Assembly: GCA_037783545.1 (NCBI GenBank)
Contig: JBBELK010000480.1
Location: 2,365,001-2,429,000 of the forward strand
Source of the DNA: Henricia sp. BOLD:AAB3569
Taxonomy: Eukaryota > Echinodermata > Asteroidea > Spinulosida > Echinasteridae
Direction of reading: 5' to 3'
Length of the DNA stretch: 64,000 bases
Positions 5,397 to 28,541 of the stretch are shown piece after piece; positions within the stretch are counted from its first letter, which is position 1, and each line of letters starts with the position of its first letter. The notes beneath the pieces were generated by a model. It was not told the DNA's origin, searched no databases, and saw only the letters and a program-made list of their open reading frames with translations. The position numbers and the translations under genes are program-made.

Positions 5397-5699
5397 GGCA
5401 CATGATTTTTCTCTTATGTGCCAAAACTGAATGAAACTACAAAAGCAGTAACTCGGCATTTTTCCAATTTTTTCTTTAATCTGCAGGGGATGACCGTTAT
5501 GTACACGTTGCTATATTCATACATCCTAAAACTGTACACAAAAAAAACAGTAATACACAGTAACTCGGACTACCAATATTACAAAGCCTTTCGTGTGAAG
5601 AGAACATAAGTTTCCACCCTGAGAATATTAAAAGAATTAACTTGAACATGAAGACGACTAATACACTACTTCAGATTGTCGATAAAAGCCTTGAGTAAA

Positions 5700-5992
5700 C
5701 ACATGCGAGTCTTTCCACGGTAAAGGGGGCATTTTGGCAACACAGACCATATTTTCCAGAAAATACCTTTTGTCTGGTCTCAAAATAAAAGAAATAAGTT
5801 TCAGTTGTTCTGAAGAGACGACAACATGCCTTTCTAAAAACCCTGTGTACAAATTTCCACTATACGCTCGGGACAGACACTTGTGTTACATTTTAGGCCG
5901 TCCCGGTTATGAGCCTATAGACAAAGGTATTTCCTCAAAAATATGGTCTGTGTTGCCAAAATGCCCCCTTTACTGTGAAAAGACCCATGTAC
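5700..5992. mobile_element. Family A foldback element, copy 3 (internally deleted)
   Basis: Starts CATGCGAGTCTTTCCACGG and ends ACTGTGAAAAGACCCATG. Shorter than copies 1 and 2 because part of the right arm is missing. Confidence 0.8.
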
Positions 5993-6149
5993 ATTTCATA
6001 TTTGTCATATAAACAGTTGTACATGTATTAGTGCAGAATGCACCTAATTGTTTTTTCTCAACACTAAGAGCATGTTCAAGCAAGAATGAGCATTGTAGAA
6101 CAAACATTTTTTTTTTTTGGTAGTGTACATGTACTTACACCACTGACCT

Positions 6150-6342
6150 ATATAAATGGACTGGATGGGCCACTTCCTGGTTGAAACCACTATCCGCCAT
6201 CTTCCACCATTTTGCATGTGTTATTAAAGTGGAATGCGAGTGATTATATGGACTGGAAATCAGTCTAGGCAAAGCATTGTCTGTAGCAAGATGGCCGACG
6301 CGTTGCTTCAATTCTTGCATATTATCCATCTCCTGTCCATGT
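6150..6342. mobile_element. Palindromic miniature element Q, copy 1
   Basis: Contains AAGTGGAATGCGAGTGAT and GCAGTCTAGGC-like arms shared with 52752-53003, and arms with CGCCATCTTCCACC / AGATGGCCGACGCG. Confidence 0.6.
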
Positions 6343-6454
6343 ATAGAGGTCAGAAAAGTTACCGCACACTGAAAAATCTCTACTCTATAAAATGTTAAAG
6401 ATGACCATGTCTTGTCAACAGACTTGCGCTACTAGTCACTCCAGCATTATTGTA

Positions 6455-6835
6455 CCGAATAGACTTGGGCGACTCTAGCATTTTTGGAGTCTACTCAAAA
6501 AAACATTTTTTTTCACAGAAAAATCACTAAATATACTACAGCATGTTTAAGTGCTTGTGCCCTTTTTGCGATAGCTTGTGAGGCATAGCAACAATATCCA
6601 AGGGGGTGGGGTTAATTGGGCAATCTTGCAACTTTGCATTATTGGCACCGAGCGGCACTAAATATCCATGAAATGATGCTGCCCTGTGCCACACACCTTT
6701 TTTAATAATGTCAAAATTTTGCATAAGTCAAGTGTTTTTGGAATTTGGAATTGCTAGGTAATTTCTAGAATCGACTTCCAAACTGAAATCGATTTTACTC
6801 TACTCCGGCGCGGAATCGCCCAACCCTTGTACCTA
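6455..6835. mobile_element. Probable inverted-repeat element
   Basis: Ends AGACTTGGGCGACTC and GGAATCGCCCAACCCT are imperfect inverted repeats. The interior is not recognised. Confidence 0.4.
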
Positions 6836-8905: not shown

Positions 8906-9172
8906 AACAAGGATTTGCCGAGTTCCGACTAATTTGGCACGATCGCATGACAAATCTGACCATCTACCACAAAATGGGCTGTAAAAGTTGGCTGTGAGTC
9001 AATTTTTTTTAAACAGTTTCAGAAACAACTTCTAAGCTTTAAAATGATGCTCGTTTCAAGTTTATACGATATTCAGGAGTGAAATATTAAGGTTCACTGA
9101 ATCTGGCCATGTCTGAATATATACAAATGTGAGAAATCTTGGTTTAAAATTTAAGATGTGAATTTCTGACGT

Positions 9173-9756
9173 AATTATTAACACTGTATACTCAGTGCTT
9201 TCCCGAGACACTATGAAAAACTTCATAGTGTGCTCGGGTGGGACTCGAACCCACGACCTTCTGCAAACAAGGCAGATGTCTTAAACGATTCGAACCGGCC
9301 ATTCAACACCGGCTAGCTCGGTGGTCGAGTGGTTAAGACGTCTGCCTTGTTTGCAGGAGGTCAGGCGCGGATCCGGGGGGGTGGGGGGGGGGAGGGGGCG
9401 CTTGGGGGTCAAAACTCCCCGCCCCCTGCTCTTTAAAAAAAAAAAATTAATAAATTAATTGACAAATAAATTTTGGTCCAGATGTTCATCAAGAGAAATC
9501 CAAGGAGGTTATTTTCCCCGATATACAAGTCTTCCCCATCATAAGGTAAGTGCATCACTCAGCAATGTACAAGTGATAGATTGCATACTTTATATATATG
9601 TATATATATATATATATAACAAAATCTGACGGGCCGAAACTCCCCCTGGAAAAATTCCTGGAACCGCCCCTGGAGGTCGTGGGTTCGAGTCCCACCCGAG
9701 TACGCTATGAAGTTTTTTCATAGTGTCTCGGGAAAGTACAGTGTTAATAATTACAT
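9173..9756. mobile_element. Foldback element whose arms hold a tRNA-like sequence, with nested insertion
   Basis: Outer arms GTAATTATTAACACTGTA / TACAGTGTTAATAATTAC. Each arm carries GAGACACTATGAA and a tRNA-like unit with A-box (TAGCTCGGTGGTCGAGTGG) and B-box (GTGGGTTCGAGTCCCACC). The right tRNA-like unit is split by the element at 9363-9673. Confidence 0.75.
9363..9673. mobile_element. Inverted-repeat DNA element nested in a tRNA-like sequence
   Basis: Starts AGGCGCGGATCC and ends GGAACCGCCCCT (imperfect terminal inverted repeats), flanked by a GAGGTC duplication. The interior has a G-run, an A-run and a TA dinucleotide repeat (9591-9618). Confidence 0.65.
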
Positions 9757-9891
9757 TGGGTAAGGGCAAAACAAACCCCAATTAACATTTTGCTTTGAAG
9801 TGCAAAATAAAGTCTGCCAACTTTACGGCCCGTTTGTGGTTGACGGTCAGAACTGTACTTAACTCCAAACATTGTTGTAGCTGAACGTAGC

Positions 9892-10169
9892 TCAGGGCTG
9901 TTCAACGGTGACCACCTCAACCGCCTGAGTCGCCAGCGGGACCGACAATTGCTGCTGCTGTAGTTGAGTTGCTTGTATCTGCCCGCCGGCCGTTACAATA
10001 GACGATGGTACAACGACCTGTTGCATGTGTCCCCCTTGGCAGACGGCCGGAGATTGGGACTGAACAACGGCAACAGTGTGAACGGGAAGCTGTGTATGGA
10101 CTTGGATTTGACCACCGTGCTGCATGCTGTTGACCATGCTCTGATACATGGAGGCGGGGATCACGATGC
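9892..10169 (-). CDS. NRF1: NRF1 coding exon 7 (C-terminus)
   Basis: Acceptor TTTATACCAG. Encodes GIVIPASMYQSMVNSM, a Gln/Val-rich run and the family C-terminus QAVEVVTVEQP, with TGA at 9894-9892. I saw no convincing polyadenylation hexamer on the minus strand in the first few hundred bases downstream. Confidence 0.96.
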
Positions 10170-13100
10170 CTGGTATAAAGAAAGAGGCTTGTTCAGAGTT
10201 TTCCAGAAAATGGATTTCACTCTAACCTAACAATCATGTAAAATATTATCCATGGGAAGAAAACAGTACAACTCGTTTAAGATTACAGGCTCAAAATATC
10301 GTCTGGAACTTGGCGCGTATAACAGGAGCACTGTAAGAGATTCTTTCAGATATCACAATGGGAAACCATTCTCAACAAAAGATCAAGTTAACAATCCAAA
10401 AGCAGCCTACTGTGTAGAACAATACCCCGTGGGCTGGTGGTTTCACAATTGTATTTCTTGTAATCTAAATGGTCAATATCCCCATGACAAGTGGAGTATT
10501 TCTCCAAAGAATATAGCGTGGTCCACAAAAGAATTCTTATTACAAGATTGTATCTTGTACCATCAAAATACGTGAAATTTAAGGAGCGTGTTCAGAATTT
10601 TACAAAAAATTTGATTTTGTTTTAACCTAACAATCATATACTTTTTACAATCTCCAATTGCGCAAGTCCACTTACGCCATAAATTATTGCGCAAGTAATG
10701 GCGTAAGTGGACTTGCGCAATTGCGTAAAGTTTCGTGAAATCGGCTGCAGATAAATTAGTTTACAAAACATCGGTGGTTTTTTGACGATATCCTTGAAAA
10801 TATACGGATTGAGAGCACAAAAGTTCAGAATGGTAATGAGAAAAATATGACGAATGACATGGTGTCAAAATATCAACACCAATGGGAAAAATGGGTGGTC
10901 AAAAATGTGATCTGGACACGCTCCTTTAAAGCTCTTAACAGGATCTGCAATGTCCCATGATTTTAACTACACTCGACCAAAAAAGTTCTGTCACCAGTAA
11001 GACATTTATAGATATTTATTATTAAATTGGAATTAATGTAGGAAAATAATATATCAAATTTTAGCTGAACATATCCCTCAAAGGAATAGAGCTCAACAGA
11101 GATCATGATAGCAAGCTTCACTGAACAGGAATGCAACAAAGGAGTGTGGGGTCAGAATGAAAAACACCAAAGAACAATGCAACTTGTGATTTGGGCAATT
11201 TGTGTGTAGACAATTAGGAAATTTTTAAGTGAGTTTGGATTAATCAATGTCTTGTCAAAAACATCAAAATCAAAATAGTTAAATTGTCCAATCTCAATCG
11301 TGCCATTGCATTAGGTATGGTGGAAGCAAAATACTGAACTGTAACTCCACTTGCATGAGTGCAATAAAGTTTACATCGTTGTTCTTTGGTGTTTTTCATT
11401 CTGACCCCACACTCCTTTGTTGCATTCCTTTGAGGGATACGTTCAGCTAAAATTTGATATATTATTTTCCTACATTTAATCCAATTTAATAATAAATATC
11501 TATAAATGTCTTACTGGTGACAGAACTTTTTTGGTCGAGTGTATTTGATGGAAAAACCTTACTCAAATGGAAGATAGAAGTGGTTCCAACTGTCCAATGC
11601 AATGATTCTGCCCGAGAGACATCTTTTTATTAAAAACGGCGGTGCATCAGTATGTGATGTCTCCAAACTTTGCTTGAGTACAAGTCAGAAGGATCTATTG
11701 AATTAACATCATTTGCACCAATTTTGACAGATTTTGATTCAAATTTACCGAACTAATACAAGCACTGTTACATCAATGCTCCTAACCCCCTTTTTTCCAC
11801 AGAAAATGGGAATCCATAAAACTCGAACAATATTTCACACCCAAATTGAAATTTTTGTAAGCATTGTACCTTGCGTGGTTCCATCACTGCCCACCGTGCT
11901 AAGTGTTCCCATTGTCTCTGCATTCCCAGACAGCATAATATGCGTTCCTTCAGCGAGCGTAGCCTCAGCGAGTGTCGCCATGCCCTGCGCCGCCGCTTCG
12001 CTATTCATCTCCACCGATACCGGCGTAGCTTGCGGTGCTTGCGGGAGCGTCGTAGTTGTGACTACGGTGCCGCCCTGCGATGCAGCGACATCAGCGAGTG
12101 TTTGTACGGCTTGAGATGCTTGTTGCTGCACTGGGATGTGATGCAGCTGAACATGCTGGATCTGCCCCATCTGTTGAACTTGCTGTACCTGTTGCACTTG
12201 CTGTAATTAATTGACAAGCAGCCAATCAAAATTAAGTACACAAGTTCCAGTAGCCGATTTCATGAAACTTACGCACTGCATAAGCTGGGCATCATTCCTG
12301 TGATTATTACATGCAAGCTATGGGGCTTATAGCATTTTCAAAAGTTGCGAAAACTAAGCATTTGTTCGTAAAATCGACTGCAGGCCCTAATTTAAATCAC
12401 AAGCTATAGACTTTTATCACGGTGCGACCATCTTCCCTTTTCTCCTATTAAAGGCCCTGTAGATGATCTGTTTTTAAAACCATTAAAACCATTATAAATC
12501 AAAAGAAAGACATCAACAAACTCACCCGAAGAAATTTTGTCAAATGTACCACGTTTAAAAAAAACATGAAAATCCATATGCATTTTCCTGGTTTGGGGGG
12601 GTTGTTTCAAATATTCGTTCTCAGTTGATCAGGTACTATATGTGGCTTGCGTCATGCACTCTGTGGCGCACATCATGCGTGTGTGCGCGGTCCATAAAAA
12701 TGCATCGCGTTGGAACACGCACACAGAGTACACAGCGCCCATGCATTTTGGACCGCGTAGATGCGAACCAAAAATAAGTAAATCGTTTGCAAACGATCTA
12801 AATAATTTCATCTTTACGGATTATTTTCTGGTAAAATTATATCATTTTGAGCGAAAACCTTTCATTGGATAGTTGCTATTAATTCAATCTTTACTTTCAG
12901 AACTTTTCCCCTGTAAACTCGTCGATTACTTTTTGGGATCCTTGCAAATGATCCACTGGGCCTTTAAAGCTCTTATACAGGATCTGCAATGTCCCATGAT
13001 TTTAACTATTTGACTCAAAAATTCTTACTCAAATGGAAGATAGAAGTGGTTCCAACTGTCCAATGCAATGATTCCAACATGAGATGATATCATTTTAAGA

Positions 13101-16100
13101 TGATATTTAAAAAACTCACGTTGACGTCCGTGAGCGTTGCCACTGTGTTTCCCGTATCCACTTGAATAAGAGACACGGTACCATCAGGGTTATTAATGGT
13201 TTGTACCACGGCATGAGATGGTATAATAGTGGCTTGTGCACGCTGCTGGATAAAATCCTTGACTTCTTTATCTTCATTGAATTCTGGCAAGAGGTCTTCG
13301 CGTCCGTGGTGTTTGTAGCAGTTCTTGACGATAGTGCGTAGGGCGTGGGTCCACGAAACCTGCAAGGATTGAAGAGTGTCATCGCAAAACGCCATAAAAT
13401 AAAAATTTCCATTTTTTACTTTTCAAAAATTCTAGGCGGTATTCGGGTACTGTCCTGAATGCCCGTTATATTTTCACATTTTTAATTGGTCCGGAATGGA
13501 ACTCGTTTTTTGCAGAATGGGTCGCAAATGTTTTTCACAGTTCATCCACGTATAAAATGAAAACAGGCATTTACCAAATGCTTAAACAGTTAGTCTAACA
13601 CCGGTCAAACTTGCTACTTGCAAAACATGTCTGTTTAAACGTTTAATTATTAGGGTTGTAGTCGAGTCCATAACAAGTCCTCACAAGTCCCTGGGTCATA
13701 ATTCAAGTCACAAGCTATTCAAATGAACTCCAACAAAGGCATTCTTTTGTGCGTGTACTGTTCATCCTTTGCTTCTTGTTACTGGACTTGTGATTTTATC
13801 GGCTCTGGACTTGCGATTTTATCGGCTCTGGACTTGCGATTTTATCGGCTCTGGACTTGCGATTTTATCGGCTCTGGACTTGCGATTTTATCGGCTCTGG
13901 ACTTGTAATATTATCGGCTCTGGACTTGTGATATTATCGGCTCTGGACTTGTGATTTTATCGGCTCTGGACTTGTGATTTTATCGGCTCTGGACTTGTGA
14001 TTTTATCGGCTCTGGACTTGTGATTTTATCGGCTCTGGACTTGTGATTTTATCGGCTCTGGACTTGTGATTTTATCGGCTCTGGACTTGTGATTTTATCG
14101 GCTCTGGACTTGTGATTTTATCGGCTCTGGACTTGTGATTTTATCGGCTCTGGACTTGTGATTTTATCGGCTCTGGACTTGTGATTTTATCGGCTCTGGA
14201 CTTGTGATTTTATCGGCTCTGGACTTGTGATTTTATCGGCTCTGGACTTGTGATTTTATCGGCTCTGGACTTGTGATTTTATCGGCTCTGGACTTGTGAT
14301 TTTATCGGCTCTGGACTTGTGATTTTATCGGCTCTGGACTTGTGATTTTATCGGCTCTGGACTTGTGATTTTATCGGCTCTGGACTTGTGATTTTATCGG
14401 CTCTGGACTTGTGATTTTATCGGCTCTGGACTTGTGATTTTATCGGCTCTGGACTTGTGATTTTATCGGCTCTGGACTTGTGATTTTATCGGCTCTGGAC
14501 TTGTGATTTTATCGGCTCTGGACTTGTGATTTTATCGGCTCTGGACTTGTGATTTTATCGGCTCTGGACTTGTGATTTTATCGGCTCTGGACTTGTGATT
14601 TTATCGGCTCTGGACTTGTGATTTTATCGGCTCTGGACTTGTGATTTTATCGGCTCTGGACTTGTGATTTTATCGGCTCTGGACTTGTGATTTTATCGGC
14701 TCTGGACTTGTGATTTTATCGGCTCTGGACTTGTGATTTTATCGGCTCTGGACTTGTGATTTTATCGGCTCTGGACTTGTGATTTTATCGGCTCTGGACT
14801 TGTGATTTTATCAGCTCTGGACTTGTGATTTTATCAGCTCTGGACTTGTGATTTTATCAGCTCTGGACTTGCGATTTTATCAGCTACAACCCTGTTAATA
14901 ACAACCTCTTACCTTTTTCTTTTCCTCTTCTGTGCGAACGTCACTGCGTACGTTAGCCCAGGGTAAATCGGACGGCCACCAGACCGGCCTGCAACTCTCC
15001 TTTCCCCAGCCCGGTTTACCCCGCCCCGTCGAGTACTTGAGCATGAGCGGAATGAACGCCCTGAGTTGGGCTTGCGTCATCTTGTTGACCGGTGTCGGAA
15101 TGCCATCTAAGACCAGGGGTGGGAGGTCGTAGAGGTTGGCGGTGTCCCCTGTTTGGGCCGGGGGTGTCTGCTGGGCGAGCGCGTTGTCTAACTCACTCAT
15201 GATGACGCTTTTACAGCTGCGCACCTGTTTATGGAATTAAAGGAGCGTGTTTAGATCACAATTGAGCCCCCCATTTTTCCTATGGGTGTTGAAATGTTGA
15301 TACCATATAATTTGTCATATTTTTCTCATTACCATTCTGAAATTTCACACTATCAATCCATATATTTTCAAGGATATCGTCAAAAAACCACCGCCGTTTT
15401 GTAAACTAGTTTATCCGGTTGCATAAAGCAGTGCAGTGACTACACCATTTTTTTAGCTTCCACATCAAAATTTAGCAGACTTAGATAAAAGGATAATGAA
15501 CAATTCTGGTGCGATAGACCTTTTGCACCGGCAGCCATGACAGTGGGCAGGTTTTCATATTTAAATGTCACAATAGATCCACAAAGTTCCTACTCTGCAC
15601 AATGCACAGTGACAATCCCTATCATGGCTGCCGGTGCAAAGAGTCTATAGACTTAAACTGACCACATGATCAAGTGGGTTGGCGCCAAACACTTTGAAGT
15701 TGGTTTCCTGTTTCCCTGGTGTACAGCAGATCATAACGGCTTGCTGTCCCACTCTGGTGGTGTACTCGTCGATTGTGGCTCGTAACTTCCTGCAATTGAA
15801 ATGAAGAAATGCTATTTCCTCAAAATATTCTTGATCCGAACAGAAGTTTGTTGAATACAGTGAACTTGTGGATAACAATGATCGCCCAATCACTTTGGAA
15901 TTGCTTTCAAGACTTCCCACTTCAGTGATTTCCTCTAGGTCCAAGTGTATTTAATTTGAATAAAGCGATTCCCACAGTAATGAAATGTGACATTTTCTGT
16001 TTCTGCAGTTAAACGCTCTCAGAAAACCAATTATGTTGGGTTTTCTATTTGATCAAACCTGCATGGCATGAGCTGACTTTAGGATCTACGCATCTCCCAA

Positions 16101-18210
16101 ACAGCCCAAGAAGTGCAGAAGCTTAGGAAGGCACTTCGGACAGAGTGGCACACTCTGCCTCAGTGGCTCCTACAGAGGCTGGTGCAGTCAGCCTTGCCAC
16201 AAGAGATGGTCATACACGTTACTTGATCTCTTGGTTACAGTAAAAACATGTCCTTTTTTAAAGGTAAAGTACATCATTTGCAGTGACCTCAATTTTTTTT
16301 TAATGAGTTGACAAGAAAAACCTTACTACCGGTAAAAGAGTTAATATCAATAGTACCAAATACCACATTAATTTATTTCTGTCCTAAATGGTATTTTGTG
16401 TGAGAAATTAACAACTGAAGGTGGTTTTCTAAAAAAGTCTTTTGCAAAAGACTTTTTTTATCATTCAACTTAAAGGCACAGACTCGTCAGCAATGCGCGC
16501 GCCAAATTCGTGCAACGAAATACGCAGCTCCATGTAGCAAAAGCATGGAGCTGCGTATTTTATGGCACGAAATTGGCGCACGCGCATAGCTGACGAGCCT
16601 GTGCCTTTAACACAAACACCATGCATGGATTTTTCAAGTTTTCTGAAGTATTGCTGCATCTACCGGTATGTGGCTGAAATTTCAAAATGGTCGCTCACCT
16701 CAGTAGCCTCGTCTGTTGTCGTTTGCGAATTGATGGGTTGGTTTCAAACGAGTGAGGGCGCTTTCTCTTCTTGCCTGTTGCTATAGCAGCAGCTGCCGCT
16801 ACGCCAATGGGTCCTTTAAAATGAAACAGAATATAAATGATATTTGGTATGGTGCCTGATCATCTCTTAAATGAAACAACTAAACATGGGATGAAAGACA
16901 AATTGTATGGACCTCATCGAGATTTAGAGCATCTGTCTAGTGTGTCAGAGGTCTTGGGGAAAACCTGAAGGAGTATACCACTGTGCCTCATAGCTCAGCT
17001 GGTAGAGCATCTGCCCGGTGTGTCAGAGGTCTTGGGGAAAACCTGAAGGAGTATACCACTGTGCCTCATAGCTCAGCTGGTAGAGCATCTGCCTGGTGTG
17101 TCAGAGGTCTTGGGGAAAACCTGAAGGAGTATACTACTGTGCCTTATAGCTCAGCTGGTAGAGCATCTGCCTGGTGTGTCAGAGGTCTTGGGGAAACCTG
17201 AGGGAGTATACCACTGTGCCTCATACTATCATAGATCAGCTGGTAGAGCATCTGCCTGGTGTGTCAGAGGTCTTGGGGAAAACCTGAAGGAGTATACCAC
17301 TGTGCCTCATAGCTCAGCTGGTAGAGCATCTGCCCGGTGTGTCAGAGGTCTTGGGGAAAACCTGAAGGAGTATACCACTGTGCCTCATAGCTCAGCTGGT
17401 AGAGCATCTGCCCGGTGTGTCAGTGGTCTTGGGGAAAACCTGAAGGAGTATACCACTGTGCCTCATAGCTCAGCTGGTAGAGCATCTGCCCGGTGTGTCA
17501 GAGGTCTTGGGGAAAACCTGAAGGAGTATACCACTGTGCCTCATAGCTCAGCTGGTAGAGCATCTGCCTGGTGTGTCAGAGGTCTTGGGGAAAACCTGAA
17601 GGAGTATACCACTGTGCCTCATAGCTCAGCTGGTAGAGCATCTGCCTGGTGTGTCAGAGGTCTTGGGGAAAACCTGAAGGAGTATACCACTGTGCCTCAT
17701 AGCTCAGCTGGTAGAGCATCTGCCCAGTGTGTCAGAGGTCTTGGGGAAACCTGAGGGAGTATACCACTGTGCCTCATACTATCATAGATCAGCTGGTAGA
17801 GCATCTGCCTGGTGTGTCAGATGTCTTGGGGAAAACCTGAAGGAGTATACTACTGTGCCTCATAGCTCAGCTGGTAGAGTACGTACCTGCCCAGAGAGTC
17901 AGAGGTCTTATCCCAGGCTTGGTTGAAACATCATTTTTTTTGCATTTGAATTTTTACTGGGAGTGCCCTTTACACCCATCACACGTTAAAGAATATTCAT
18001 ATTTTTTTTCTTTCTCTTTTTCATCATGCGATTCATACAAATAATTTCCTATCGATCTACGATTTTTTATTTATTTATTTAATACTTGCCTGCTGCAGCA
18101 AGTTGCGCAGTGACGTCATCATGCATTGATGAACTCAGCAAGTCATCGTCATATGCGGACTCCGGCGAGGAAGGCTCGCTGACATCATCATGATCACCTA
18201 TCATCATCAT
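9892..18210 (-). CDS. NRF1: Nuclear respiratory factor 1 (NRF1 / P3A2 / Ewg family), 7 coding exons, complete
   Basis: Sequence-specific nuclear transcription factor; in animals the family binds GC-rich YGCGCAYGCGCR sites in promoters of nuclear genes for mitochondrial function. Coding exons on the minus strand are 18210-18090, 16813-16699, 15789-15663, 15224-14913, 13359-13120, 12200-11870 and 10169-9892. They join in phase to 1524 nt, 507 residues plus TGA, close to the about 503 residues of human NRF1. Visible are an acidic Ser/Pro-rich N-terminus, the basic stretch KKRKRP (residues 55-60), the conserved DNA-binding/dimerisation block (about 55-250, with RKRQQTRLLRKLRATIDEY and STGRGKPGWGKESC), then a Gln/Thr/Val-rich activation region ending in QAVEVVTVEQ. 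An in-frame TAA at 18222-18220 just upstream supports the ATG at 18210. Introns carry many mobile elements. Identification is by family knowledge of the protein sequence and is very secure; an upstream non-coding exon is likely because an acceptor-like site precedes 18250. Confidence 0.96.
10577..10931. mobile_element. Family C miniature element, copy 1 (with nested hairpin)
   Basis: Ends TTTAAGGAGCGTG and CACGCTCCTTTAAA. Interior shared with copies at 15237, 18317, 22855, 31504, 37375, 46946, 54988 and 59077. In NRF1 intron 6. Confidence 0.85.
10655..10728. repeat. Near-perfect hairpin nested in family C element
   Basis: ATTGCGCAAGTCCACTTACG and its exact complement around a loop with a further TTGCGCAA. 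Related sequences at 62120-62262. Confidence 0.8.
10968..11545. mobile_element. Recent foldback element M in NRF1 intron 6
   Basis: Arms of about 110 bp starting CACTCGACCAAAAAAGTTCT are almost exact complements. A second inverted pair (AACAAAGGAGTGTGGGGTCA) lies inside. Flanked by TA. The uninterrupted target is present at 12963-13075. Confidence 0.9.
11870..12200 (-). CDS. NRF1: NRF1 coding exon 6 (activation region)
   Basis: 331 nt, acceptor TTAATTACAG, donor CGCAAG|GTACAA. Opens with a short Gln/Val repeat and contains NSEAAAQGMATLAEATLAEG, matching the NRF1 activation domain. Confidence 0.95.
12448..12967. mobile_element. Family G element, copy 1 (NRF1 intron 5)
   Basis: About 520 bp with AAGGCCCTGTAGATGATCTG at one end and CCACTGGGCCTTTAAAG at the other. 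Inverted copy at 62391-62921. Confidence 0.8.
12963..13078. repeat. Local duplicate, empty-site copy for element M
   Basis: CTTTAAAGCTCTT through AATGCAATGATT matches 10925-10967 joined to 11546-11627 without the foldback element. It ends about 40 bases from the exon 5 donor. Confidence 0.85.
13120..13359 (-). CDS. NRF1: NRF1 coding exon 5
   Basis: 240 nt in phase 0, acceptor CCTTGCAG, donor GTCAAC|GTGAGT. Encodes VSWTHALRTIVKNCYKHHGR and then NNPDGTVSLIQVDTGNTVAT, a conserved NRF1 block joining the DNA-binding and activation regions. Confidence 0.97.
13647..14897. repeat. 23-bp minisatellite (about 48 units) within an inverted-repeat element, NRF1 intron 4
   Basis: Unit GGACTTGTGATTTTATCGGC plus TCT, 13784-14885. 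Central units are identical; the first six and last five differ (CGATTTT, AATATTATC, ATCAGCTC). TAGGGTTGTAG on the left and CTACAACCCT on the right are inverted, as if the array expanded inside a miniature element. Confidence 0.9.
14913..15224 (-). CDS. NRF1: NRF1 coding exon 4 (core DNA-binding region)
   Basis: 312 nt in phase 0. Encodes LDGIPTPVNKMTQAQLRAFI and the hallmark block STGRGKPGWGKESC, ending RSDVRTEEEKKK. Donor AAG|GTAAGA. The 23-bp minisatellite starts about 28 bases beyond the donor, and a family-C element lies about 13 bases upstream of the acceptor. Confidence 0.97.
15237..15475. mobile_element. Family C miniature element, copy 2 (truncated)
   Basis: Starts TTAAAGGAGCGTGTTTAGAT about 13 bases upstream of the NRF1 exon 4 acceptor. 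The far end is missing. Confidence 0.8.
15513..15651. mobile_element. Family E palindromic miniature element, copy 1
   Basis: Ends ATAGACCTTTTGCACCGGC and GCCGGTGCAAAGAGTCTAT, with GCCATGACAG and its complement in the arms. Also at 23240 and 46098. Confidence 0.85.
15663..15789 (-). CDS. NRF1: NRF1 coding exon 3 (DNA-binding region)
   Basis: Acceptor AATTGCAG, donor CATGTG|GTCAGT. Encodes KLRATIDEYTTRVGQQAV and FKVFGANPLDHV, near-identical in pattern to the NRF1 family. Its donor lies about 12 bases from the end of a family-E miniature element. Confidence 0.96.
15840..16232 (+). pseudogene. Tc1/mariner-like transposase C-terminal relic, copy 1
   Basis: Bases 16107-16222 read QEVQKLRKALRTEWHTLPQW and LLQRLVQSALPQEMVIHV, the C-terminal helix region of Tc1-like transposases. 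Flanking sequence down to about 15840 is shared, inverted, with 59600-59985. It overlaps NRF1 intron 2. Confidence 0.6.
16470..16610. mobile_element. Family D palindromic miniature element, copy 1
   Basis: Complete hairpin of about 140 bp: TTAAAGGCACAGACTCGTCA ... ACGAGCCTGTGCCTTTAA, with AATACGCAGCTCCATG in both arms. Also at 43901 and 61821. Confidence 0.9.
16699..16813 (-). CDS. NRF1: NRF1 coding exon 2 (nuclear localisation signal)
   Basis: Acceptor TTTTAAAG, donor CTGAG|GTGAGC. Encodes an Ala-rich run, then KKRKRPHSFETNPSIRKRQ, matching the start of the NRF1 DNA-binding region. 115 nt, phase 1 to phase 2. Confidence 0.95.
16925..17925 (+). repeat. 78-bp tRNA-like tandem array in NRF1 intron 1
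   Basis: Twelve full units plus a partial one. Each has a Pol III A-box (TAGCTCAGCTGGTAGAGC) but no clear B-box, then GAGGTCTTGGGGAAAACC. Two 84-bp variant units with TACTATCATAGATC lie 555 bp apart, showing a higher-order block of seven units. Inverted units occur at 20307-20480. Confidence 0.9.
18090..18090 (-). other. Non-canonical GC splice donor of NRF1 intron 1
   Basis: Exon end CAG followed by GCAAGT, the known strong form of GC-AG introns. Required by reading frame with exon 2. Confidence 0.85.
18090..18210 (-). CDS. NRF1: NRF1 coding exon 1 (residues 1-40)
   Basis: Starts with three consecutive Met codons and carries the family motif EPSSPESAYDDD. It ends after a G that completes a Gly codon with exon 2. 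The only junction that keeps frame uses CAG|GCAAGT, a GC donor. The GT two bases further on would shift the frame. A second acceptor-like AG (ATAG|GTGATC) lies just inside the ATGs, so a shorter version of this exon with an upstream start is possible but less likely. Confidence 0.88.
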
Positions 18211-18250
18211 GATGATTGGTTAGTTGGTCACGTGACCTTCGGGTCACATA
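18211..18250 (-). promoter_or_regulatory. NRF1: NRF1 5' leader with palindromic E-box and hairpin
   Basis: Forty bases upstream of the start ATG, preceded by an acceptor-like TTTTTTACAG. It contains the perfect 12-bp palindrome GGTCACGTGACC (18226-18237), an E-box of the USF/MITF/TFEB type. Overlapping it, GTGACC-CGAA-GGTCAC can form a 6-bp hairpin in the transcript. Whether it works as DNA site or RNA structure is unknown. Confidence 0.45.
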
Positions 18251-18316
18251 CTGTAAAAAATAATTGCATCAATACAGTAACTTTGTATCATTGTATGTGA
18301 TTTATATGATGTACAA

Positions 18317-18505
18317 ATTAAAGAAACGTATTCAGATTTTTCCAGAAACTTTCTTTCGTTTTATTACATCATAGGCCTAAAATTCCTCCCCCAAAATATG
18401 GAAGAAAACAGGAAATTTTGATGTGGAAGCAAAAAGGTTGGTGTAATTACTGCACTGCTTTATGGAACCAGATAAATTAGTTTACAAAACATCAGTGGTT
18501 TCCCG
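18317..18505. mobile_element. Family C element fragment, copy 3
   Basis: Diverged: AAAGAAACGTATTCAGATTT, then GATGTGGAAGC and GATAAATTAGTTTACAAAAC as in other copies. About 70 bases upstream of the NRF1 5' leader. Confidence 0.7.
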
Positions 18506-20300
18506 AGGTTAATTTCAATTCAGGCATGCAATATTTTACAAAATGTTGCACTTTTTGCTCCAAGCTTCTTCGCATTTTTGTGTTTAAAAGCCATAAACTT
18601 TAGCAAATTTGATAAGAAAATTCTTCATATTTTATTCAAATTTATTTGTCTAGATAAAATTGGACCAAGCAAAAACATTTAATTTTGCAATGGTCATTTG
18701 TTAACTGAAAAATAAAATTTTGGCTAAAATAAAGTGAAAATGTAAGTTTCTTTAATTATAGGCTACATATATGTACTTCAAAGAATCGGGTACCAAAACT
18801 CAACCAATTTTCTTAAGCCAAGAAAATTCTATTTAGGGATGAAACCGTTTCGTCAGTTCATGCGCGCATGTGGAATTTGTTAATTCAATGTTCTTTAAAA
18901 AAAAAGCAAAATAATATAAAATGCCACTGATTCAGTGATTGTGATCATGCCAGTTATTTCCTTTATTTGCAGTTCTGAAATTTACAGTGTACATGTATTT
19001 ACACCAATATTCATTGACAACTTTGCCAATTTTTTTGCTAACTTTTTCCACCTGTTTTTACTTCAGTGCATTGGGCATAAAAACAACCCAAAAATGCACG
19101 CAGCCCATTGGGTGTTTCTCCCAAAAACCCCAAAACTTTTTGGTGCATGCGTACAAAATCGACGACTTTTTGCGACTGCGTAATGGCTGCCGCTATTGCG
19201 CATGTCTCACTTATTTTCAGACGGTAGCAAATCTATGGTCGAGTTCGAAGCCAGAAAAATCTCTTGAATCCTACGTTTTCGTGTGTTTCTTGTACAAAAA
19301 TCTCCCATCCCATTATCTACTTAGATTTTCTGCGCCCTTTTGTATGTGGAAGGTTCAGATTCTACTGAAAATCCGTAAAAATGTGTGTCTGCTCGGGGAT
19401 GAGAGACGGAACGAAAAGGCCGAGTGAAATGATACGCCATTGCGTCTGCGCACAACCGAACATCGACTATCCGAGTGGGAAACCCTCAAATAAAATACCA
19501 AATTCTATCACAAATACAGTTTTTCTGCCAACGAGATTTGATCACTGGGTTCTTCAATATGCATATTTTCGCCACAGTCTTTTTCATCGGTAATATCTAC
19601 CCAAAAAACCCACAAAAAAACAACACAAACGATCACGACTAAATGCCAATTCTTGGAAAGAGCGCAGTGCGGCTGCGCAAACGACAAAAGAGTGACAATT
19701 TTCAATATTTACCACCGTTTTTCCTGACAAAAATCTTGCTTTATTTGGAACTATAATGTATGTAGCAGGTTGAAACGTGTAAACTAACTCTTCAATTACA
19801 TATACTGATGGTGTCATGGAAAGATACTTACCACAAATAATGAAATTTTGGTGTCAAAAAATCTCTCTTTCGCAGATTTCAGATGCGCGGAACAGTTCAC
19901 ATTCGGGACAGTTGTGAGCACGCCACTCAGTTCACTGAGAGGGTGTAGAAATAGGGGTACCTTCAATTGACGTAGGGAGAATTTGAAAATCGATCAGGTG
20001 TTTCCATAGGAACAAGAGCATAGCGTAAATAGGGTCAATGCACTTTTGGTAAAACTTAAAGAGGATCGATGTGGAAATTAAGTTTTTAATTTTCTCCATG
20101 ATCATGATTGAAACAAATATCCTTAAAAGGGATGGCAAAGAAAGAGAATTTTTTATGCTAATTGTTTGTGGTAAATCCAATATGCATAAGTACGGTGCAC
20201 CAAGGGCAGTTTTATTATCACAAAGCAGGGACGGTGACAAAATTATAATAAAATATGAACAATTACTGATTTTTAAGTGGTTTTCTTTGGGCCTCTACCA
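18506..20300. other. Intergenic or 5' region of NRF1, no gene seen
   Basis: AT-rich with a CpG-richer stretch at 19130-19470. Open frames show no domain and no family resemblance. No repeat family recognised. Confidence 0.5.
19130..19470 (-). promoter_or_regulatory. Possible NRF1 promoter / first non-coding exon region
   Basis: Locally CpG-richer sequence 0.9-1.2 kb upstream of NRF1 coding exon 1. It contains TGCGCATG (an NRF1-type half-site), AATGGCTGCCGC (YY1-like) and CTGCGCAC. No donor or transcript evidence is visible, so this is a weak inference from base composition and motifs only. Confidence 0.2.
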
Positions 20301-20306
20301 GCTGAC

Positions 20307-20480
20307 CTTTGAGGCACAGTTGTATACTCCCTCAGGTTTCTCCAAGATCTCTGACACACCGGGCAGATGCTCTACCAGCAGAGCTATGAGGCACAGTGGT
20401 ATTATAATACTCCCTCAGGTTTTCCCCAAGACCTCTGACACACTGGGCAGATGCTCTACAAGCAGAGCTATATGAGACAC
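20307..20480 (-). repeat. tRNA-like units, inverted (two copies)
   Basis: Two units of the 78-bp repeat of 16925-17925 in opposite orientation, separated by GGTATTATAATACTCCC. Confidence 0.85.
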
Positions 20481-20859
20481 AGTGGTTTTCTGTTACAACT
20501 TTTCTCCGGGTGTTGCATGAATCATGGAGCATGAATGCATAACTATAAATCCACTATGATGCATCTGCAGTATACAGTGCATGAATGACAGTTTTAATGT
20601 CAGAGAACGAAAAACATAATTTGTTAAAAATATGAAGTTATGACGTGACTGTAAATTGTTCTTACTGTATTATGTAGTAAAAGACAACAGATTGGAGAAT
20701 GTCATTTTTTTAAAGTAGATATTATAGTAGTAGTTCTTTTTGGCACAAAGTCAAATTAAATCAAATTTTATGCAAACTATTGATTCACATTTGCTAATAA
20801 GCATCATACATCAATTTAAATAATCTTAAAGACCCTATGTATCATTTGCAAGATAAAAC

Positions 20860-21605
20860 AGTTCGCTGAGAAACAGTTCGTTGAGGGCGTTCGCCCTTTC
20901 AGCGTTCCGCATACGCGAACGGTGCGCCAACAACGTTCGCCAACGTTGGCCAACAAACTGTTGGATTAGTCCCAGCGGTCGTATAATAGCGACGTTGTAA
21001 TGTGGCTTGCCGCTGCTTACCAATTTTTTGAAGAAATGTGACATGTTGCCATTAATTGTGTAGTAGCCAGCGATAAGGGAGAAAACAACGAAAGGTATGG
21101 CAAGCCAAATGCCCAATAATTCGATAAACACTGTTTTTCGAAAAACAGTGTTTATCAGTTGATCAACAAAGTTTATCTCGAAATACTTTGTTTATCGGCG
21201 AAAAACTATGTTTATCGGCGAAAAACAGTGTTTATCGAGATAAACTTTGTTTATCGAGTGATAAACAGAGTTTTTCTCGAAAAACAGTGTTTATCGGTTG
21301 AAAAACCTTGTTTATCGGCGAAAAACCGTGTTTATCGGCGATAAACATTGTTTATCGAATTATTGGGCATTTGGCTTGCCATAGTAAGGTGCAATTTATT
21401 TGTAATTTTCAAAACTGCAAACCATCGTCTTTCATGTCGCGTGCGCCATTTTGAAATGACTCGCGAACATCGCGGGAAACTTAAAAGTTCGTTGGCCAAC
21501 GTTGGTGGCGCACAATACGTTCCACTTGAAATTGTTGGCCAACGTTTGCAAACGTTCGCGTATGTAGAACGCAGCCCCTTTGTTCGTTTTGATGTAAAGT
21601 CAATA
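20860..21605. mobile_element. Family F element, copy 1, carrying a hairpin array
   Basis: Arms rich in AACGTTGGCCAAC, with GCGTTCCGCATACGCGAACG at the left and ACGTTCGCGTATGTAGAACG at the right. Inner arms share ATTTCTTCAAAA- and ATGGCAAGCCAAATGCCC-type sequence. Confidence 0.75.
21092..21382. repeat. Short tandem palindromic array inside a perfect inverted repeat
   Basis: ATGGCAAGCCAAATGCCC(AATAATTCGATAAAC) and its exact complement flank about 220 bp of roughly 20-bp units such as GTTTATCGGCGAAAAAC. The units are themselves quasi-palindromic. Confidence 0.85.
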
Positions 21606-22854
21606 AAAGGTAGCCTTTTTTAACTTTGAAGATTTCATTGCACTAAATCACAGAAAGAGGGCGCTGTTTGGAGTGCATCACTTCAGGAAGGGAAAAGTAA
21701 AGAAAAACATACGACTTCAAGCTGGAATTGTGGCAAATTGCTGCAGTTTCCACCCTCAGTTTTGTCATGGCTTACAACAGGAAACATGTAAAACAAACTC
21801 GAATAGCCATGGATTACAAAGTTCGAGCAAGTTTGAGAAAAAAAAGTGGAATCTTTTGTGCACAGTTGAATGTGATTTTCCTGTTTGCCTCTTCTGACAT
21901 CACAACCTTGATCAGAATATGCATATGCATTAGCATAAAAGCTAAAAACCTTTGTTTTAACCCCCAAAACAAGCTCCAAATAGGATTTTTATGACTGTAA
22001 CTGATTAGAGTAGTTTCATAGCATAGATTTCATTGATAAAAATCCCTAATCACGGGCTCTTTAAACGAAACCCAATTTTAAAGAATTTACAATAGTTTTC
22101 AGAGGGTTATTTGTAATGACTTCATGAAGAACATGTATTTCATTTTTTTTTTAATATTCATGTAACCTGACACAAGCACTATAGTGTAAGCTACAAATTT
22201 TTTAAAAATTTACATAAAAATTTAATTATCCACACAATACATTTTGCAAAATGATACACTTTCAAATTAAAATGTCTGCTCTAAATACAAAATTTGATCT
22301 CTGGCAGAACTACAAAAATAACTAAGTAACTACAAGTCTATAAGTGCAATTCTAATTACCAAAATAGAAATATAACATTTTGTCTGCGAGATAGTAATTA
22401 AGCACCTTAAATGTTGATCTAATGCTCGTCAAAATGTCTAACACAAACTTATATTTAAGTACATATAATTATTATAAGCACCATCAAAAAACATATTTTA
22501 AGGTCTTATTTTTAACTAAGGAAATTAAAAGACTAGACGTGACTACAATAGAAATAGAAAAGCATGTTAAGTAACTCCTCAAAAAGGTAAAAAGTTTGCT
22601 TTGGTTTTCACTGGTTTTTGTTCTTAAATCATGTACAAATTTTGAAAATATAATTTAAATAACACACAATTTCTAGCTAGGTGTATTAAAGGTTAAAGTA
22701 TGATTTGCATAGTACATAAAAATGAGCGCGCGCACCATCATTTTTAAAACCATCAATTGTTTTCTTCAATAACAATTTTGGTACCATTGCTCTGATCACT
22801 TTAAATAAGATTTACATAACGTATTGGGTTACTAGTAAATGTTATACTAAACCC
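21606..22854. other. AT-rich intergenic stretch
   Basis: No gene seen. 22063-22125 (AACCCAATTTTAAAGAATTT ...) is shared with 55595-55660, marking an otherwise unrecognised repeat. Confidence 0.5.
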
Positions 22855-23096
22855 TTTAAAGGAGCGTGTTTAGATTTTTGCACAAAATGGATTTTGTTTT
22901 CACCTAAGAATCATATAAAATGATTCAGAAAACAGGACATTTGTGGTCTCCAATTTTGATGTGGAACCAGATAAATTAGTTTGTAGACAAAACATCGGTG
23001 GTATTTTGAGTATCAAAAATGGTATCAAAATCTCCACACCTATGGGGAAAAAAATGGGGGGTTAAAAAAATGTGATCTGGACACGCTCCTTTAAGA
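22855..23096. mobile_element. Family C miniature element, copy 4
   Basis: Ends TTTAAAGGAGCGTGTTTAG and GACACGCTCCTTTAA. Nearly complete and short. Confidence 0.85.
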
Positions 23097-23239
23097 GGAA
23101 TGTAGGTTGTTCACATGACCAAGCAGTTGCTGACATTTTGAGCTAGCTAGGGCTAACTAGGCAGATGATCTCACCGTTGAACATAAAATATAACCAGTAC
23201 AAAATCAGGCAGTGAGCAATTTAAAATTAATTACTAATG

Positions 23240-23386
23240 GAGCTTCTGCACCGGCGGCCATGACAGGGGGCAGATTTTATTATTTAAATGATGTAACAAT
23301 AGAACCACAAAGTGCCTACTCATGCATGACACGAGGTGACAATGTGACTGCCCCCTGTCATGGCCGCCATGCAAAGGCTCTATACA
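23240..23386. mobile_element. Family E palindromic miniature element, copy 2
   Basis: TGCACCGGCGGCCATGACAG ... CTGTCATGGCCGCCATGCA, arms about 35 bp. Confidence 0.85.
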
Positions 23387-23544
23387 TGTACCAACTTTAT
23401 GACACTTGGGAAAACCAGCATCACGGCAAATCCAGTTTAGCCTGTATTGTTATGGTCATTTTGGCCTCGAGTGAAGGCCAATTGTAAATGACAATATGGC
23501 CCTGAACAGAAGTCACATGACCTTATATATAGCCTTAGATTTGT

Positions 23545-23760
23545 GGGGTGTTATGGCCGAGCGGTCTAGTGCGTCGAACTCAAGTTCCTGTGCCAGTACT
23601 AAAATGTGGGTTCAATTCCGGGCCGCAACAGGTTGTGGCACTTGTGCTCTTGAGCAAGGCACTTAATCACACGTTCTCCATCCTTCGGAAGGGATGTAAA
23701 GCCGTTGGTCCGGTGTGTTAGGTAAGGTAACGCACTTTAAAGATCCCGGAGCATTTCTTT
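23545..23760 (+). mobile_element. tRNA-derived SINE (tRNA-Leu-like head)
   Basis: Head GGTGTTATGGCCGAGCGGTC with a long variable arm and B-box GTGGGTTCAATTCC, followed by a tRNA-unrelated body (GAGCAAGGCACTTAATCAC, GATGTAAAGCCGTTGGTCC). Body sequence recurs at 62310-62390 and 62921-62955. Confidence 0.8.
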
Positions 23761-23913
23761 GTGAAGAGAAGGGGAGGGATTCCCCGGTGTCTCTGGCCAT
23801 TTCTAATTCATCATGGGTTTTCCTCACGCTTGCCGCGCGAGCGACAGTGCTTTTGAGGAATCCTTGGTTTCAGTACCAGAAAGAAATAATAATAACATGT
23901 TCTACAAAGTCCA

Positions 23914-23950
23914 CTTGACAGATACCATTTAACATTTCCTTCATGTCTTG
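23914..23950 (-). pseudogene. Copy of the SMKR1 stop-codon region
   Basis: 31 identical bases to 24444-24475, which spans the SMKR1 stop codon and start of the 3' UTR, 530 bp apart in the same orientation. May be a partial gene duplicate or an unusually long target duplication around an insertion of about 500 bp. Confidence 0.6.
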
Positions 23951-24443
23951 GCCAACTCACGCCCGAGTCATTTTGATGTAATTTAATAAATTTGGTCATG
24001 TTATGCCGAAAAGAAACGATTTCTATACTTTCCAGAAATTGTATTGGGTTCCGTTCCTTATGACTGTCCCATTCCTACCAAACTTTCAAACGACGATCTT
24101 AATTTACTCCGCAGTTTTTCAAATTAATAACAGGGATGCATGCTGACGAATGTAATGGAACGGATTTCCCAGTATGCTTTAAATAGCAGCCAATCGTCGA
24201 CGCGGACAACGGCCAGCATTACCGAGTACATGTATCACATGCATGCACGGTGTTTACAATCTGCGCGCGTTACATTTGAATGCCTGCAATTATGCTACAA
24301 TGCACTGCCAAGCGTCCTGATTGGTCCAGCAGAGGCGACAAGATTTCTGTCGCTAGTCCCACCGCCAAATGGGGCCTTTTTCAACAGGGCCACTGTACGC
24401 AGGAGTTAGGGAGTGCGTTAAAGGGGCACTGTTGCAAGAGGAT
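23951..24443. other. Stretch between the two SMKR1-end repeats
   Basis: About 490 bp of moderate GC with no recognised feature. Might be an insertion if the flanking 31-bp repeats are its target duplication. Confidence 0.4.
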
Positions 24444-24472
24444 GACTTGACAGATACCATTTAACATTTCCT

Positions 24473-24778
24473 TCATTTCTTCTTTTTCTTCTTGCCTTTC
24501 CCTTTTTTCTTTCCCTTGGGGGCATCCGGCCACCCAAACCCCCTCATTTCCAGAAGTTCCTGCACTCCATGAGCGATGTAATAAGCGTTCGTCATGGCGG
24601 CAGGACTCATTAAATCCACCGGTTTCTTGGCAAGTTTCCCGATGGGCGAGGCCGACCTGGCTTTTCGTCCTTTCTTCTTGCCTCCTGGACTTTTACTCCT
24701 GCTGCGGCTTCTACTCCCCTTCTTGGATTGCCGTGGTAATGCCTTGGCGCTTCGGCTGTAGCCTGCCTTTTTGCCAGG
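24473..24778 (-). CDS. SMKR1: SMKR1 main coding exon
   Basis: 306 nt, phase 0, ending TGA at 24475-24473. Composition is strikingly Lys-rich at both ends around the conserved SPAAM...YYIAHG core. A 31-bp stretch covering the stop codon and early 3' UTR recurs at 23914-23945. Confidence 0.88.
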
Positions 24779-25562
24779 CTGTGGGAGATATGAAAAAAAA
24801 AAATGTACATGTAAAACTAAAACTTAAAAGAACAATAAAAGCTCATTTGCATATCGTTGCTAGAATTATATAATATTGGATGGCTTTGAGGGTGATATGA
24901 GAATATACCGCGTCATGAAAATACAGAACGAGCCGAAGGCGAGTTTGGTATTTTCATGACGAGTGAGGTATATTCTTAAATCACCCGAAAAGACATCCAA
25001 TATTATTATTGTTATATAAAATGAAGCTTTGTTTTGAAAGATTTCCGCGAGATTTTTGTCCGTTTGGTGTTGAAAACTTCAGTTTACAACTGCATGTGCT
25101 TTTGTTATATTGTTGTACAGTATTTTTTGTTACTGTACTCCTGTGCGCGTAGCACAACCCATGGTGCATTGGACGCCCCCCAGCTATGGCGGATATACAG
25201 CATGTACAGGGAAGTAGACTTTCGTTACCGGATTGGTCTATAGTAAAACCAGGGAACTGTTTCCCTCAGCTCAGCATGCCGCAGCTAGCTGAGGTTACCT
25301 CGGCTCGAATTTTATCATGTGGTTAGATAACCACATGATAAAATTCGAGCCGAGATAACCTCGGCTAGCTGCGGCTGTGGTGCTTAAGTTTAGTCTTTAG
25401 ATAGTAATGGACATTTCACTAAGTTTCAGATTACCAGCTAATGTTTAGAACCAGGACAGGTAGGCCTACCATGCCCATGGCATGGCCTGCATGGTACCCT
25501 ATCGATAATCCAATCGTCAAAATGATCATCACATCTTTTTGCCCAAAGCCCAAACTTACCAT
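24473..25562 (-). CDS. SMKR1: Small lysine-rich protein 1-like (SMKR1)
   Basis: The main exon (24778-24473) encodes 101 residues plus TGA. It has a Lys/Arg/Ser-rich N-terminal half ([18 protein letters not shown]), then the diagnostic block [36 protein letters not shown] and an all-Lys tail. This matches vertebrate SMKR1 (DILSPAAMLNLYYIAHN, RGFHWPGAPKGKK). Acceptor ATCTCCCACAG is clear and the exon is in phase 0. The best first exon ends at 25560 with ATG|GTAAGT, so it contributes only the initiator Met and the protein would be about 102 residues. The molecular role of the family is not known to me. It lies about 6 kb upstream of NRF1 on the same strand. The N-terminal basic part is longer than in the human protein. 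The 781-bp intron holds two palindromic elements. Confidence 0.85.
24884..25210. mobile_element. Element U, copy 1 (SMKR1 intron 1)
   Basis: Palindromic part GAATATACC...CGTCATGAAAATAC / GTATTTTCATGACGAG...GGTATATTC, followed by ATATAAAATGAAGCTTTG and GTCCGTTTGGTGTTGAAAAC. Inverted counterpart at 31584-31945. Confidence 0.7.
25277..25375. repeat. Long near-perfect hairpin
   Basis: GCCGCAGCTAGCTGAGGTTA...CACATGATAAAATTCGAGCC: arms of about 48 bp with two or fewer mismatches and almost no loop, in SMKR1 intron 1. Confidence 0.9.
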
Positions 25563-25680: not shown

Positions 25681-26009
25681 CAGACTCAGTCATGAACATG
25701 GTCATGAAGAAGTAATTTCAGTTTTCTACCACGCTGTTTTCTCATCAGCTCATCAGCAGAGCAAGTTATTAAACTTACACCTTATCGGGAAATGACTAAA
25801 AAATAATGGTTGACCAAACTCATCATTAACATTTTGCACATTTTGGAATGCTAAAATAAACAAAGAAAGTGATACATTTTTCTTAAAACCAAACACGATC
25901 TGTGAAAGACACACCACCGGCCGTACATATCCGATATCCATATGCTATTGTTGCCATGGCTACATGCAACCAGCAACACTTGAGGGCGCAATTCACTCCG
26001 CCTGCGCCT

Positions 26010-28339: not shown

Positions 28340-28541
28340 GTTCGTGACAGGTCCAACCAGCGCTAGCAGCCAGCGGAATGTTTTGTTGCCCGAACGCTCG
28401 CACTGCTCCGCTCCTTCGGCAATAAAACCTGTTTTTCTGTCGGCTGCAAAGCTGGATAATTGCCGCTTTACCTCGATAAAGGAGCCCAGTTACTGAAAAG
28501 TCTGCCTCTGTGGAGTTTTCACCTGAAAAGCGTCAGAATGG
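28340..28541 (+). CDS. Candidate first exon A of the HMG-box gene (ATG G|GTAAGT)
   Basis: GC- and CpG-richer stretch ending CAGAATGG|GTAAGT, a consensus donor in phase 1. Joined to 34887 it gives Met-Asp-Met-Leu. The CpG-rich setting fits a promoter and 5' UTR. It could instead belong to an unseen transcript; the start of the exon is not defined. No other plus-strand gene is visible to claim it. Confidence 0.4.

Follow-up and report, generated by a model that had tools for sequence, protein, structure and literature searches.

The stretch analysed here (the window) comprises 64,000 nucleotides, bases 2365001-2429000 of contig JBBELK010000480.1 (C480), in the 740.7 Mb assembly of the asteroid Henricia sp. 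BOLD:AAB3569. On its minus strand it carries a nearly complete coding region of the gene NRF1, from 9892 to about 18190, and, ~6 kb upstream of it, a small SMKR1-like gene whose predicted product has 102 residues and a lysine-rich tail. The initial annotation had placed the SMKR1-like gene directly upstream of NRF1 on the same strand, and this arrangement is seen on both haplotype contigs, C480 and C264 (the second haplotype contig used for comparison), which agree in the order and strand of the pair. The pair has very probably been inherited in this order from an ancestor shared with the vertebrates, within a block formed by AHCYL, SMKR1 and NRF1. SMKR1, NRF1, AHCYL and UBE2H were placed by searches of this genome, and the cross-species comparison sets this one genome beside published vertebrate gene lists, which may omit genes. 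The features concerned are as follows, in window coordinates unless a contig is named.

9892-10169, 11870-12200, 13120-13359, 14913-15224, 15663-15789 and 16699-16813, minus strand: NRF1 coding exons, with boundaries placed from splice motifs
about 18090-18190, minus strand: NRF1 N-terminal exon, placed from splice motifs, with a GC donor at 18090 and an approximate start
18191-24472, no strand: interval from the recognised NRF1 coding start to the SMKR1 stop, which should hold the NRF1 5' end and promoter
24473-24778, minus strand: SMKR1-like coding exon 2 (101 codons and a stop, the stop at 24473-24475), recognised from its match to human SMKR1, from one locus per haplotype contig and from synonymous haplotype changes
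25560-25562, minus strand: probable SMKR1 start codon, the last bases of exon 1 (ATG/GTAAGT), placed from sequence and phase alone
25950-25963, plus strand: symmetric RFX X-box match with one mismatch, ~390 bp upstream of the SMKR1 ATG
C480:2340083-2361996 (window -24917 to -3004), plus strand: AHCYL, from a codon-score screen and the genome search
C264:446978-470220, plus strand: AHCYL on the second haplotype, from the genome search

The seven coding exons of NRF1 join in frame, and the joined protein matched both the Pfam DNA-binding and dimerisation domain PF10491 (6.8e-115, 382.6 bits against a cutoff of 23.5) and the solved chain 8k4l, Nuclear respiratory factor 1 (E 4.3e-112 over 233 residues); by that domain the predicted protein is a member of the NRF1 family. 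All matches to NRF1-domain exons in the genome-wide search, in which only the best candidates were scored, lie on C480 and C264 (8/8). Scans of prokaryote and viral contigs for stray animal DNA, one of them with an NRF1 exon as query, returned no relative. The introns contain a long 23-bp tandem array common to both haplotypes (13782-14885) and a 78-bp tandem array (16925-17909) with tRNA-like pieces visible by eye that were not called as tRNA by Rfam; inverted relatives lie at 20310-20471. The stretch around the gene, 9098-20217, is 99.5% identical between the haplotype contigs, compared with averages of 93-98% in the flanking stretches, and a flank piece at about 5693-6827 is likewise nearly identical. 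This identity could stem from shared ancestry, from gene conversion or from a phase switch in the assembly; purifying selection alone is insufficient, since introns and tandem repeats are included.

The SMKR1-like exon was compared with a human SMKR1 sequence not taken from a database record, against which it scored 167, the maximum among 5000 shuffles being 75, with 22 of 34 core residues identical; the earlier identification of 24473-24778 as SMKR1-like is thereby upheld. Its predicted product has what we take to be the hallmark of SMKR1, a core of the form SPAAM-N-YYIAH...RGF-WP-AP followed by a lysine-rich tail, and the comparison with this human sequence suggests orthology with human SMKR1. 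ATG/GTAAGT at 25560-25562 provides a good splice donor and joins the exon in phase, so that 25562, the end coordinate first given for the region, was right. Across the assembly, both matches to SMKR1 (2/2) fall in the window and on C264. All five substitutions between the haplotypes within the exon (5/5) are synonymous and a single 6-base insertion is in frame, which fits a real, constrained, protein-coding gene. The predicted protein had no match in Pfam at E up to 1 or in the PDB at E up to 10. An ant gene is also named SMKR1 in print (PMC7343836), and the family is therefore probably not restricted to vertebrates. A study of azoospermic men lists SMKR1 among spermatid- or testis-related genes (PMC11052749), and in a study of sheep sperm it is grouped with production traits (PMC7912062). 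Adjoining the SMKR1 stop, ~495 bp at 23950-24444 are present on this haplotype only and are flanked by a ~32 bp direct repeat.

AHCYL, outside the window, is the next recognised gene beyond NRF1; the two stand tail to tail, with the end of AHCYL ~13 kb from the NRF1 stop. In a codon-score screen of open frames over the left 100 kb and the window, based on few training exons and with repeat-rich frames dropped, no convincing coding exon was seen, among the best 130 of 2880 frames, in the gap from AHCYL to NRF1 or in the one from NRF1 to SMKR1. AHCYL has one close locus per haplotype, and its best PDB matches are 3gvp, 'Adenosylhomocysteinase 3' (551 bits), and 3mtg, 'Putative adenosylhomocysteinase 2' (549.7 bits), which we take to be human AHCYL2 and AHCYL1, respectively, compared with at most 346.6 bits for chains named adenosylhomocysteinase. 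The predicted product is thus nearer to AHCYL1/2 than to AHCY, and the nearly equal scores for AHCYL1 and AHCYL2 are as expected for a lineage that diverged ahead of the vertebrate duplication. C209 and C517 carry more distant matches, at 35-60% identity, which are probably AHCY relatives. UBE2H exons were found at C480:424471-429269 and also on C70, with 73, 81 and 67% identity to a human UBE2H sequence likewise not taken from a database record, other E2 (ubiquitin-conjugating enzyme) matches reaching at most 44%; C480 makes up 0.33% of the assembly. At about window -80370, on the plus strand, an exon with a weak zf-C2H2_2 match (19.9 bits, below the cutoff) presumably resembles the zinc finger protein ZNF277, whose human gene lies on 7q31, and through it the linkage of this contig with human 7q may reach further.

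Among the vertebrate lists, that for human chr7:129187430-129350170 includes SMKR1 and NRF1 (PMC6591479), and a human 7q32 list gives AHCYL2, NRF1, UBE2H, ZC3HC1, KLHDC10 and TMEM209 (PMC3441634). The first of these backs the adjacency of human SMKR1 and NRF1 claimed by the initial annotation; their same-strand orientation, claimed with it, is presumed. A goat list prints mir-183, MIR96, mir-182, NRF1, SMKR12, STRIP2 and AHCYL2 (PMC11874128), in which SMKR12 is read as SMKR1. For cattle chromosome 4, one list gives SMO, AHCYL2, STRIP2 and NRF1 and another row of the same source gives SMO, AHCYL2, NRF1, MIR183, UBE2H, ZC3HC1 and KLHDC10 (PMC13244917); a zebrafish chromosome 4 list gives smo, si:dkey-180p18.2 twice, ube2h and nrf1 (PMC2654907). 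Pieced together, the mammalian neighbourhood reads SMO-AHCYL2-STRIP2-SMKR1-NRF1-miR-183-UBE2H. It resembles the present locus in that AHCYL, NRF1 and SMKR1 are neighbours here and UBE2H is on the same contig, and differs in that SMKR1-NRF1 is inverted here relative to AHCYL, UBE2H is 1.95 Mb from NRF1, and miR-183 and STRIP were not found nearby. Conservation of the gene order with mammals, as first proposed, is borne out and extends to AHCYL and, at the contig level, to linkage with UBE2H.

The inherited block would be larger than the pair, comprising AHCYL, SMKR1 and NRF1, plus STRIP in mammals. A single inversion would relate the order AHCYL(+), NRF1(-), SMKR1(-) seen here to the goat order AHCYL2, STRIP2, SMKR1, NRF1, and SMKR1 and NRF1 would have travelled in it as one unit. 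This inversion relative to AHCYL is suggested by comparison with the human strands, all genes of the neighbourhood being presumably on the plus strand, with SMKR1 and NRF1 in the same orientation. By one definition, a conserved microsyntenic block needs three or more orthologues that are separated by no more than five intervening genes in each of the two genomes (PMC8851819), and AHCYL, NRF1 and SMKR1 form such a block, the mammalian side being taken from the printed lists. We infer that the block descends from a common ancestor.

As to why the pair was retained, the genes lie ~6 kb apart, or closer still should NRF1 begin at an unseen upstream exon, and a break between them would seldom leave the NRF1 promoter and SMKR1 both intact. 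Passive persistence of so short an interval therefore seems the most likely reason, ahead of regulatory constraint. The survey of Robert et al. (2022) leaves both of these causes open and assigns 256 new multi-species blocks to the bilaterian ancestor, whereas its shuffled genomes gave 45, 48 or 56 (PMC8851819). Since old gene neighbours are common, the pair is real but of a known kind. As in those surveyed blocks, unrelated neighbours were kept in an invertebrate and in vertebrates (PMC8851819); the difference is that one genome is here set against vertebrate lists. In the titles and abstract beginnings covered by the literature search, no treatment of SMKR1-NRF1 as microsynteny was found, the pair list of Irimia 2012, which could hold it, being outside that search; nor do the papers found that name both genes deal with synteny. 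Irimia 2012 reportedly deals with conserved microsyntenic pairs of animals. AHCYL-NRF1-SMKR1 stands as a new and modestly interesting example of conserved animal microsynteny, and, if its persistence is passive, as one more ordinary case of the slow decay of gene order.

Several observations weigh against such inheritance. STRIP was not found with PF07923 or PF11882, searches that are uninformative given that all controls were equally silent. The miR-183 family, beside NRF1 in mammals, went unrecognised in the 178 kb read: the miR-183 pattern with up to three mismatches had no match in the window, the exact pattern had none in the whole genome, and Rfam at gathering scores found only tRNAs in the window, in the 100 kb to its left, in the 14 kb to its right and in 50 kb of C264. 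The single genome-wide candidate, a miR-183/182-like hairpin, is on another contig, at C64:1681271-1681344, below threshold (38.1 bits in Rfam, gathering score 53; 59 of 69563 first-look candidates were scored). Beyond SMKR1, the present locus has HMG-box and quinone-reductase-like genes, which to our knowledge are not mammalian neighbours of the pair. Further, SMKR1 is not named in the cattle lists cited above (PMC13244917) or in a sheep list, which is arranged alphabetically (PMC11161479). A looser miR-183 search gave two matches with four mismatches each, which were taken as chance.

Of the explanations other than passive persistence, the one that survives best is a genomic regulatory block, in which enhancers of NRF1 would lie in or beyond a bystander SMKR1 and breaks between the two genes would be selected against; we consider this possible, but unlikely. 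In favour of such a block, the pair stayed joined while flipping relative to AHCYL, and here, too, an unrelated neighbour has kept its place beside the gene of a transcription factor. However, the interval here is very short, only a few kb. Genomic regulatory blocks typically centre on developmental regulators, whereas NRF1 is largely housekeeping and broadly expressed, and is not known as a developmental switch. The longest identical runs between the haplotypes exceed those of shuffled sequence in the NRF1-SMKR1 interval (388 bp, 0/2000) as well as upstream of SMKR1 (146 bp, P 0.0025). They do not single out that interval, since the left flank and NRF1 itself hold longer ones, which shows that such runs are not peculiar to control sequence; in four unshuffled stretches the runs measure 623 bp (left flank), 2247 bp (within NRF1), 375 bp and 399 bp. 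Two papers accept genomic regulatory blocks as a cause of long-lived gene pairs (PMC8851819, PMC5722932), and the spermatid or testis listing of SMKR1 (PMC11052749), unlike the profile of a broadly used regulator, is as expected for a bystander. Taken together, a shared regulatory block, the cause suggested for the pairing in the initial annotation, is neither supported nor refuted. Slightly more doubtful still is the stronger proposition that SMKR1-NRF1 is an indivisible cis-regulatory unit predating the split from the vertebrates and flipped as a whole, with SMKR1 carrying control sequence of NRF1, a master regulator of mitochondrial genes. Should a block prove general, SMKR1 would become a candidate site for NRF1 control elements, and this uncharacterised small gene would gain an evolutionary handle.

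That the pair was kept by co-expression, the two genes sharing control that is needed together in, for example, ciliated or sperm cells, appears improbable. In its favour are the near-perfect X-box upstream of SMKR1 and a forkhead-like octamer adjoining the SMKR1 ATG. However, forkhead octamer matches are spread over the window and over-represented throughout it (11 against 4.98 expected), the genes are in tandem rather than divergent, and NRF1 is broadly expressed; the literature tying 'small lysine rich protein' to 'cilia' amounted to a genome-wide association study of language. X-box matches at up to three mismatches are not enriched in the window (5 against 3.42 expected). NRF1-like palindromes number 31 against 19.01 expected in the window, a count reached by 1/100 shuffles, and are likewise spread over it; four weak ones at 19142-19679 were picked after the fact. 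As candidate sites noticed post hoc, the X-box, forkhead and NRF1-like motifs would be compatible with SMKR1 acting in cilia or sperm and with NRF1 regulating itself. Finally, that SMKR1 and NRF1 came together independently here and in vertebrates is hardly credible, because, although this is a single comparison with no third genome, two further genes are also shared, AHCYL as the next one recognised beside the pair and UBE2H by linkage on a contig of 0.33% of the assembly, and one given pair would be adjacent in about 1 in 10,000 cases by our own estimate for some 20,000 genes.

The remainder of the window contains, on the plus strand at 34881-40802 and divergent from SMKR1, a gene whose predicted product has two HMG boxes and ends in an acidic tail, for which the nearest solved structure is HMGB1 and a possible first exon lies near 28520. 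Between its exons, on the minus strand at 35691-36299, is the RNase H domain of a retroelement fragment. Further along, at 55917-56795 on the minus strand, are zinc-binding dehydrogenase exons, presumably of a quinone-oxidoreductase-like gene.

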